Shown here one piece after another: positions 11,524-28,228 of a stretch of 34,310 nt of DNA. Location of the stretch: the NCBI GenBank assembly GCA_028710685.1, contig JAQTTQ010000001.1:80946-115255 (forward strand), given 5' to 3'. The notes beneath the pieces were generated by a model. That model saw only the letters and a program-made list of their open reading frames with translations. It did no database searches and was not told the origin of the DNA. Position numbers and translations under genes: made by a program. The DNA comes from Candidatus Omnitrophota bacterium (GTDB lineage: Bacteria > Omnitrophota > Gorgyraeia > Gygaellales > Profunditerraquicolaceae). Position 1 is the stretch's first letter, and every line of letters starts with the position of its first letter.

Positions 11524-11916
11524 ATGGAGATTACCGAGGTTAGGATTGCCCTTAAAGATTCGCCCGATAAAAAACTTAAAGCTTACGCAACAGTGACTTT
11601 TGACAATTCGTTTGTGGTGAGGAATATAAAGGTTATTGAAGGAACCAGCGGCCTTTTTATCGCTATGCCTTCAAGAAGGGTAAAGCAGCCTTGCCCTAAG
11701 TGCGGTTTTAAGAATGAACTTCGCAGTAAGTATTGCAATCAGTGTGCAGGCTCTTTATCTGAAAGCTCAAAGGTTAACGCTATCGGAGAGGCAGGTTCCT
11801 CTCAGTCAGAGCATAAGGATATCGCTCATCCTATAACGCAATCGTTTAGGGAGTATCTGCAGAAAAGAGTGCTTGATGCGTACGAGCTGGAGAAAACAAA
11901 AGGCATGAGTATATGA
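11524..11916 (+). CDS. spoVG: SpoVG-family RNA/DNA-binding regulator with inserted zinc ribbon
   Basis: The first 55 residues (MEITEVRIAL, then YATVTFDNSFVVRNIKVIEG and GLFIAMPSRR) and the last 33 (KDIAHPITQSFREYLQKRVLDAYE) align with the usual SpoVG of 85-95 residues. Between them, where ordinary SpoVG has only a short loop, about 40 extra residues carry C57-x-x-C60 and C71-x-x-C74 in a CPKCGF...YCNQCAGSL zinc-ribbon pattern, followed by a Ser/Gly-rich linker. SpoVG proteins bind nucleic acids and modulate cell-envelope and developmental genes in Firmicutes and Borrelia. The ribbon could alter target choice (inference). A good GGGGGT Shine-Dalgarno precedes it. The stop overlaps the next ATG by ATGA. 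Confidence 0.88.
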   Translation: MEITEVRIALKDSPDKKLKAYATVTFDNSFVVRNIKVIEGTSGLFIAMPSRRVKQPCPKCGFKNELRSKYCNQCAGSLSESSKVNAIGEAGSSQSEHKDIAHPITQSFREYLQKRVLDAYELEKTKGMSI

Positions 11917-12638
11917 TTCTTAAGTTAAGAAAGTTACTAAAACAACATAAAACAACTTCGCTCATTGAGTTATCTAATAAATTAAAAGTTTCCTTGAATA
12001 AAATAAAGAATATTTCATCCGGACGAACACGGGTATCTTCGCTTTTTGTAAATAGATCTCAGCATAGGGTGTCGCCAAGGCATTCTAAAGAATTAGCCGA
12101 GCTTATCGGGATAGTCTTAGGGGATGGCAACATTTATAAATTTAATAGATGTCAAAGATTAACAATAAGTTGTAACGGTTCATATAAGAATTATGTTAAA
12201 CATGTTAGTTATTTGGCAAGAAACATTTTTAAGAATTCACCCAGTGTTATAAAAAGGTCTAAAGCCAATTGTTGCGATGTAACTTTGTATATGCAGGATA
12301 TTGATAAAGCGCTGGGGTTACCGGCGGGTAATAAAATAAACAACTCAGTTAGAATTCCAGAGTGGATTCTTAAAAAAAGAGAATATTCAAAAAAATGCCT
12401 TAAGGGGCTTTTTGAAACCGATGGTCATTATGGTTTGAGCAAAAAGAATTATGTTGAATATATCCAATTTTGTAATGAGTGTACATCTTTGAAGAAATCT
12501 GTTTTTGATGCGTTGGGTTTTTTAAAATATTCACCTCAGTTAGGAAAAAATTACGTAAGGTTGGCAAAGAAAATCGAAGTGCGTAAATTTATTGAAGAAA
12601 TGGATTTTGTGAGACCATTTCCCTCCTTGGCGAATTAA
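11913..12638 (+). CDS. Free-standing LAGLIDADG-type homing endonuclease-like protein
   Basis: 241 residues. Two LAGLIDADG-like helices are visible: LAELIGIVLGDGNI (residues 61-74, acidic residue D71) and KCLKGLFETDGHYG (161-174, D170). That is the pseudo-symmetric two-motif arrangement of single-chain enzymes. Residues 1-50 look like a small helix-turn-helix (SLIELSNKLKVSLNKIKNISSG). These proteins cut long DNA targets; some become maturases or regulators. The gene is AT-rich with many AAA and TTT codons, unlike its GC-richer neighbours, which suggests transfer. It sits by ATGA overlap directly behind spoVG and 13 bases before tRNA-Gln. No intein or intron host is seen, so it is free-standing. 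Confidence 0.8.
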   Translation: MILKLRKLLKQHKTTSLIELSNKLKVSLNKIKNISSGRTRVSSLFVNRSQHRVSPRHSKELAELIGIVLGDGNIYKFNRCQRLTISCNGSYKNYVKHVSYLARNIFKNSPSVIKRSKANCCDVTLYMQDIDKALGLPAGNKINNSVRIPEWILKKREYSKKCLKGLFETDGHYGLSKKNYVEYIQFCNECTSLKKSVFDALGFLKYSPQLGKNYVRLAKKIEVRKFIEEMDFVRPFPSLAN

Positions 12639-27210: not shown

Positions 27211-27282
27211 GCGCCCATCGCCCAATGGATAGGGCACCAGTCTTCGGAACTGGCCTTGGTGGTTCGACTCCACCTGGGCGCA
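27211..27282 (+). tRNA. tRNA-Arg (anticodon TCG)
   Basis: Acceptor GCGCCCA (27211-27217) with TGGGCGC (27275-27281), a D arm, anticodon stem CCAGT/ACTGG with loop CTTCGGA (anticodon TCG), T arm GGTGG-TTCGACT-CCACC, and discriminator A. CCA is not encoded. It follows the radical SAM gene by 1 base, so it is probably cut from a longer transcript. Confidence 0.95.
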
Positions 27283-27290
27283 AATAGCAT

Positions 27291-27749
27291 ATGATAAAAT
27301 TAAATATTAAACGGATAATTGCCAAAGAAGCCTTAGTTATCTTAGGGATAACAGTTTGTTTATATATACTGATACATTTTTTCCTTCAGAATGTCCCTAT
27401 AGCCTTGCCAAGATATAAATTAGATTTTGCCAATGGAGAGACACATAGCCTTGATATAATTCCGCAGATTCGCAGTTACTCTGACTACCGGCAATTTCTT
27501 GAGACGGCATATAATCCTCCCCCTAAGGTGGTTGAGAAGCGCGTAAAAGAATTTGTAAAGGTGCTGAATATTAGGTCCCAATTAAGGGGTACCAGGTTAA
27601 TAAATTCAAGGCAGGTTTATTTCTCAAGATTATACAGCCGCTTTATAGGCGTGGGATTTATTGTGAAGCTCATTTTTGTTTATTTATTCTTATTGCTCAT
27701 TCGTTTTATGGTTTGGGCGCTGAGAGTATTGTTAAGGCCGTCTTTATAA
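27291..27749 (+). CDS. Unknown membrane protein with two membrane segments
   Basis: 152 residues, family not recognised. There are two clear membrane helices: residues about 12-32 (ALVILGITVCLYILIHFFL) and 120-145 (GVGFIVKLIFVYLFLLLIRFMVWAL). Between them lies a basic, soluble stretch of about 85 residues (with PPPKVVEKRVKEFVKVLNIRSQLRG), probably outside the inner membrane if the N-terminus is inside. No Shine-Dalgarno is visible, and it begins 8 bases after tRNA-Arg. The coding character is plausible (typical codon use, hydrophobic helices at both ends), but no function can be given. Confidence 0.6.
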   Translation: MIKLNIKRIIAKEALVILGITVCLYILIHFFLQNVPIALPRYKLDFANGETHSLDIIPQIRSYSDYRQFLETAYNPPPKVVEKRVKEFVKVLNIRSQLRGTRLINSRQVYFSRLYSRFIGVGFIVKLIFVYLFLLLIRFMVWALRVLLRPSL

Positions 27750-27783
27750 TTTAAAGGGTTTTACTGAGTTTGCGGGGAATTTT

Positions 27784-28089
27784 ATGAAAAGACTATTTTT
27801 GTTGGCAGGATTTCTATTGTTTATCTTTCAACAAGGTTTCGGTAATTCTGAAGGCTTTAAATCATCTGAGGACTTCAGTTCTTCAGAAAGCTTTGTTTCT
27901 TCCGAAGACTTTAGTCCCTCCGAGAAATTTAATTCTTCCGAGAGCTTTGTTTCTTCTGAGGACTTCAGTTCTTCAGAAAGCTTTGTTTCTTCCGAAGACT
28001 TTAGCTGTACCGAAGATTTTGGCTCAAGCGAATCCTTTAACTCCTCTGAGGATTTTAGTTCTTCCGAGAGTTTTAAAGGCGCGGATTAA
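27784..28089 (+). CDS. Secreted acidic hexapeptide-repeat protein, unknown
   Basis: 101 residues. A signal peptide (KRLFLLAGFLLFIFQQGFG) is followed by thirteen back-to-back six-residue repeats covering residues 21-98 (bases 27844-28077), then GAD. The consensus is S-S-E-(D/S)-F-x; Glu at position 3 and Phe at position 5 are kept in all thirteen, and Ser at position 2 in twelve. Types SSEDFS and SSESF(V/N/K) tend to alternate, giving a 12-residue super-repeat. The mature part is strongly acidic (about 20 Asp/Glu against 3 Lys) and has one Cys (CTEDFG). Codons for the same residues vary between repeats, which suggests selection on the protein. A regular solenoid or surface/biofilm or metal-binding role is possible, but none is shown. 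Confidence 0.7.
   Translation: MKRLFLLAGFLLFIFQQGFGNSEGFKSSEDFSSSESFVSSEDFSPSEKFNSSESFVSSEDFSSSESFVSSEDFSCTEDFGSSESFNSSEDFSSSESFKGAD
27844..28077 (+). repeat. Thirteen tandem 18-base repeats encoding S-S-E-x-F-x
   Basis: In-frame 18-base units with variable third positions. Superimposed on these is a longer duplication: bases 27865-27914 and 27955-28004 are identical over 50 bases at a distance of 90 (five units), which points to a more recent tandem duplication. Confidence 0.85.
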
Positions 28090-28101
28090 TTCATTATTTT
28101 C

Positions 28102-28130
28102 TTGCTTTACTTTTTTATATAAGCTATACT
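28102..28130 (+). promoter_or_regulatory. Probable promoter of tRNA-Lys
   Basis: -35-like TTGCTT (28102-28107), a 17-base spacer, and -10 TATACT (28125-28130). The transcript would begin near 28137, about 19 bases before the tRNA. The -35 is weak; the -10 matches five of six. Confidence 0.5.
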
Positions 28131-28155
28131 TTTACTGCACTTTTGTTAATTCTTA

Positions 28156-28228
28156 GGGCCATTAGCTCAATTGGCAGAGCAGGACACTCTTAATGTCAAG
28201 GTCGTAGGTTCGACTCCTACATGGCCCA
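28156..28228 (+). tRNA. tRNA-Lys (anticodon CTT)
   Basis: Acceptor GGGCCAT/ATGGCCC (28156-28162, 28221-28227), D arm GCTC-AATTGGCA-GAGC, anticodon stem GGACA/TGTCA with loop CTCTTAA (anticodon CTT), T arm GTAGG-TTCGACT-CCTAC, and discriminator A without encoded CCA. The first pair of the anticodon stem (27-43) is a G-A mismatch; the other four pair. Confidence 0.92.

Follow-up and report, generated by a model that had tools for sequence, protein, structure and literature searches.

A hexad-repeat protein, probably exported, in one genus of Candidatus Omnitrophota

Staphylococcal Clf/Sdr surface proteins carry serine-aspartate (SD) repeats, in which a dipeptide unit makes up the wall-anchored stalk that carries an adhesin domain. 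The hexad protein described here, coded within a window of 34,310 nucleotides (the whole stretch of DNA analysed) from a small draft Candidatus Omnitrophota genome (1.24 Mb, 90% complete), is likewise Ser- and acid-rich, of low complexity, predicted to be exported, presumably extended, and able to vary in repeat number, but differs in having a six-residue unit with regular Phe, no adhesin domain, no LPXTG and no detectable family match. With the LbH hexapeptide repeat (PF00132) it shares a period of six and one large hydrophobic residue per unit; that repeat, however, folds and has small or aliphatic residues at fixed positions, whereas the hexad protein gave no Hexapep match and no beta-helix in AlphaFold2 (AF2). 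Its period of 6 rather than 5 separates it from the pentapeptide repeat. The earlier note on this DNA had placed the repeat in no named class, neither LbH nor pentapeptide, and this agrees with searches of Pfam (0 families up to E = 1), NCBIfam and PHROGs, in which no family matched. Other E-x-F hexad arrays (VSTEGF in L070, FSSTEP in L092, ESSEHF in L204) are likewise built of 18-bp tandem units, but are mostly near-perfect repeats in unrelated or implausible ORFs, from other phyla or viral contigs, with no common signal or flanks among the matches listed. The LIM-domain protein of PDB 9e5c has T-E-[AV]-x-x-A hexads that are also six-residue and acidic but without a regular Phe; its phmmer match (E = 7e-12) was a sum of many single-stretch matches, of which not one reached significance by itself (best i-Evalue 16), and was rejected as compositional chance. 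A different six-residue repeat, FPGETF, was seen in long ORFs of a myxobacterial MAG and another genome (L142 and L167).

The hexad gene lies at 27784..28089 on the + strand (101 amino acids and stop, ATG to TAA) and is an intact ORF with a syntenic ortholog and frame-specific protein-level constraint. As the earlier note had described, thirteen S-S-E-x-F-x hexads follow a signal-peptide-like start, and the layout is exactly 20 + 13x6 + 3 residues with the register unbroken: a 20-residue N-terminus, MKRLFLLAGFLLFIFQQGFG (27784..27843, +), thirteen 18-bp units coding S-S-E-[DS]-F-x hexads (27844..28077, +), and a C-terminal GAD (28078..28086, +), which is SGN in the ortholog. After MKRLFLLAGFLLFIFQQGFG, units 1-7 read NSEGFK, SSEDFS, SSESFV, SSEDFS, PSEKFN, SSESFV and SSEDFS, and units 8-13 read SSESFV, SSEDFS, CTEDFG, SSESFN, SSEDFS and SSESFK, followed by GAD, giving a 12-residue super-repeat in which SSEDFS and SSESFV alternate. 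Over the 13 units, position 1 is S in 10, position 2 is S in 12, position 3 is E in all 13, position 4 is D in six, S in five, and G or K in the others, position 5 is F in all 13, and position 6 is variable. The array is not a product of chance: a degenerate DNA pattern that requires three S-S-E-x-F hexads in a row gave 7 matches in the window, against 0 in 100 shuffles that preserve dinucleotides, and the F spacing of 6, found 12 times in the mature part, was reached in none of 20,000 residue shuffles.

Part of this regularity is recent. Units 2-4 (27862..27915, +) and units 7-9 (27952..28005, +) are two copies of a duplicated three-unit block, with 1, 0 and 1 base differences between corresponding units (2 in 54), and TRF reported a period of 90 for the array. 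Units outside the block diverge chiefly at synonymous sites in the core, and pairwise comparison of the E and F columns across units gave 64 synonymous and 0 nonsynonymous differences, which supports selection on the residues. The statement of the earlier note that codons differ between repeats is confirmed, with the recently duplicated block as a qualification.

Of four congeners, one (G001, a genome that is 73% complete and the sole source of an ortholog) carries the gene in synteny, at L003:1498-1785 on the - strand, within a gene order common to both genomes (radical SAM, tRNA-Arg, 152-aa membrane protein, hexad gene, tRNA-Lys, archease). Its product is 95 amino acids long: a recognisable N-terminus (MKVLLILAGFVLFIFQEGFS) is followed by twelve hexads and by SGN. 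There is therefore an intact homologue with a matching signal-peptide-like start, and the outcome by which the earlier note would have been refuted did not arise. The start region aligns in both species, with purine-rich stretches 5' of the ATG. Repeat number, which had been proposed for comparison, is 13 in the window and 12 in G001, with no frameshift and a difference of exactly 18 nt, or one hexad. The invariance claimed for Glu and Phe applies to the source genome (13 of 13 each) and does not extend to the ortholog, where E is kept in 10 of 12 hexads, F in 7 of 12 with one further Y, and S at position 2 in 10 of 12; the tidiness of the window's array is therefore partly recent homogenisation. 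The core most common to both species is S-E at positions 2-3 with an aromatic residue two residues on, and the hexad register is maintained across both species, which differ in how many units they have and at the variable positions.

Over 75 aligned codons, pN was 0.17 and pS 0.73 in frame 0, values that are rough since synonymous sites are saturated and the units of the two arrays are perhaps not one-to-one orthologous, and the ratios in frames +1 and +2 were above 1. Differences by codon position numbered 14/14/36, third positions accounting for 36 of 64. For the array only, dN/dS was ~0.09, compared with 0.06-0.11 in three neighbouring genes, again with saturated synonymous sites and uncertain unit-to-unit orthology. 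Since the substitutions show protein-level constraint in frame 0 and not in +1 or +2, the comparison indicates a genuine gene under selection for its protein product, as the earlier note had supposed, translation being read from the constraint. One antisense frame ('rev 1') also had a low ratio, 0.23, which stems from codon complementarity; an antisense gene was rejected, as no minus-strand start-to-stop ORF of at least 40 amino acids lies there and the reverse frames contain stops, that of 'rev 1' in the window's copy. As RNA, the array has an unremarkable fold (z = -0.6, not beyond shuffles), which argues against a role at the RNA level.

Searches for relatives were carried out at several depths. 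Beyond G001, none was found by protein search of 195 relatives, by profile search of 108 family genomes, or by pattern search of 384 phylum genomes, where nothing comparable appeared; the profile search of related genomes called for earlier thus yielded one congener and nothing else in the family. Weak family matches were rejected, one (G028) as the antisense of a VVEEPK repeat, one (G105) as a basic EFKPKG tail, and the remainder as signal region or chance. A D/E-x-F triple-hexad pattern gave only single matches elsewhere in 105 family genomes, at about the rate of a reversed-pattern control. No hexad array was found in phages and plasmids, and a protein-based scan of 84,980 species genomes returned 170 pattern matches, of which 0 were confirmed. 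A relaxed (E-x-F-xxx)n pattern, applied to genome and viral contigs, gave at least about 200 stretches; most were microsatellite-like, with near-perfect units, and lay in unrelated ORFs, and there was no relative among the matches listed. Literature searches turned up no description of the hexad. Judged by these sequence searches, the gene, found only in G000 and G001, is a genus-restricted orphan, and the hexad is new, narrow and not represented in the libraries searched.

Such a distribution, together with the recent block duplication and an unrelated ORF at the same slot in another congener, would suit a short-lived lineage-specific orphan that arose by 18-bp microsatellite-like expansion and is exported with little or no fitness role. 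However, frame, start and register are intact in both species, and pN/pS is low though dS in the flanking genes is about 0.7-1.0 between them, where unselected slippage would be expected to produce frameshifts and stops; we consider this reading unlikely. We regard the gene as a clear example of a repeat gene that is young and confined to one genus, and is already constrained at the protein level.

Both orthologs have, by sequence, a charged n-region, a hydrophobic core of 7-15 residues and small residues at -3/-1, and the likely cleavage point is preceded by the small residues G-F-G in the window's protein and GFS in the ortholog. The N-terminus, conserved in G001 and modelled by AF2 as a helix over residues 2-19, is therefore taken as a putative signal peptide, and the protein is probably exported, with Sec export and cleavage after about residue 20 inferred from these features. 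The window also codes for diderm envelope functions (BamA, OmpH/Skp, LpxD, LpxC-FabZ, LpxA, LpxI); BamA, OmpH/Skp and the lipid A genes point to a diderm cell, where export would bring a protein to the periplasm or further out.

For structure, AF2 run on a two-row alignment gave no secondary structure in the array, at a pLDDT of about 50, although two-row alignments often yield low confidence for any orphan and low pLDDT is not proof of disorder. The mature part of 81 residues is 40% Ser, 16% Glu, 16% Phe and 9% Asp, with a net charge of about -17. Its mean hydropathy is 0.41, which places it on the disordered side of the charge-hydropathy boundary at 0.49. The array is thus predicted to be intrinsically disordered, and these results argue against the regular stacked structure suggested in the earlier note. 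A related alternative is an ordered, self-assembling structural protein, in which stacked hexads would build a beta-solenoid or an amyloid-like fibre, each rung contributing one Phe, to give an exported matrix fibre. The strict six-residue register across 78 residues and the alternating super-repeat fit such a fibre, and the even-numbered step would place all Phe on one face of a beta-strand, or of a polyproline-II-like chain, and not of an alpha-helix. Against it, AF2 predicted no strand, no Pfam hexapeptide or other repeat family matched although LpxD and LpxA of the window do match Hexapep in that library, 40% Ser and a net charge of -17 disfavour packing, and the ortholog loses Phe in 4-5 of its 12 units, which together make an ordered fibre rather unlikely.

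The conserved S-E pair bears on a further alternative, in which the protein is a substrate for serine phosphorylation or glycosylation and would act as a cation- or mineral-binding phosphoprotein. SSE holds the S-x-E motif of secretory Fam20C-type kinases, and S-x-E is present in most units (S at position 2 in 12 of 13 and, in the ortholog, 10 of 12; E at position 3 in 13 of 13 and 10 of 12). Yet no modification enzyme adjoins the gene, and the secreted kinase CotH (PF08757) was not detected in any of the 5 genus genomes, which are incomplete drafts, in a search whose positive controls worked; we hold this explanation to be quite improbable.

The hexad gene sits between tRNA-Arg(tcg) (27211..27282, +) and tRNA-Lys(ctt) (28156..28228, +), and shares the slot with an upstream gene for a predicted inner-membrane protein of 152 amino acids (27291..27749, +), in which two hydrophobic helices flank a small soluble part. 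The two genes are 34 bp apart and are possibly co-transcribed; the 152-aa gene is present in other genomes without the hexad gene, so an obligate partnership is not indicated. Homologs of the 152-aa protein are patchy in the family, and a further one, 55% identical, comes from a different family of the same order (G124). It has no Pfam or NCBIfam match, its AF2 model has a pLDDT of 82, and Foldseek against the PDB gave no match below E = 0.3. The interval between the tRNA genes (window 27283-28155) recurs in several genera of the family (L049, L051, L054, L056, L058) with differing contents, often short genes with signal- or lipoprotein-like starts, and in G004, of the same genus, it is occupied by a different 255-aa ORF of no confident family (L048 1812-2579) that runs through the tRNA-Lys gene. 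The interval may therefore be a variable slot for small exported proteins, with the hexad gene as one occupant.

A radical SAM gene (PF04055; 26490-27209) lies two genes upstream, and with the short repeated motif and leader-like N-terminus it brings to mind a precursor peptide with repeated cores, matured by that radical SAM protein into a modified natural product. This is very improbable: G004 keeps the radical SAM gene without the hexad gene, the best curated matches of the radical SAM protein are far below cut-offs, and the hydrophobic, Sec-like N-terminus is unlike a typical leader.

The reading we prefer, to which we give an even chance, is that the cell exports an intrinsically disordered polyanion whose aromatic stickers are evenly spaced, and that this chain serves in the envelope or extracellular space as a flexible linker, as a brush or as a component that associates weakly with itself; the sticky acidic polymer proposed in the earlier note is compatible with the evidence. 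The protein would cross the inner membrane of the diderm cell via Sec, and cleavage after about residue 20 would leave an 81-residue, strongly acidic disordered chain with one aromatic 'sticker' per six residues, an even step that would bring every Phe to a single face wherever the chain is strand-like or polyproline-II-like. As to location, contacts and role, we infer a multivalent polymer of low specificity that may act, at the surface or in the periplasm, as a flexible polyanionic brush or linker; its Phe residues would weakly contact the chain itself, the envelope or a partner, and Glu, Asp and Ser would hydrate the chain and bind cations. Slippage or unequal exchange of 18-bp units would tune chain length and sticker number. 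A stronger version, in which the protein founds a new class, a minimal exported sticker-and-spacer polymer whose exact six-residue Phe spacing drives an extracytoplasmic condensate or matrix with length tuned by 18-bp gain and loss, seems to us unlikely. If the preferred reading is confirmed, an uncultured bacterium would be exporting a natural, very short and near-monotonous sticker-spacer polypeptide, well suited to studying how the spacing of aromatic residues governs the way an acidic disordered chain behaves; general importance is modest for an orphan whose function can only be guessed.

Two further observations concern the tRNA genes of the window. Conservation is strong in the spacer from the hexad stop codon to tRNA-Lys (91% mean identity across the block aligned between window 28060-28160 and L003 1425-1525), which holds TTGCTT-N17-TATACT, promoter-like by eye and probably the tRNA promoter. 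Directly before tRNA-Gln, a 241-aa ORF (11913-12638) matches LAGLIDADG_2 weakly (E = 1e-4, which does not reach the curated cut-off) and is a possible free-standing homing endonuclease.
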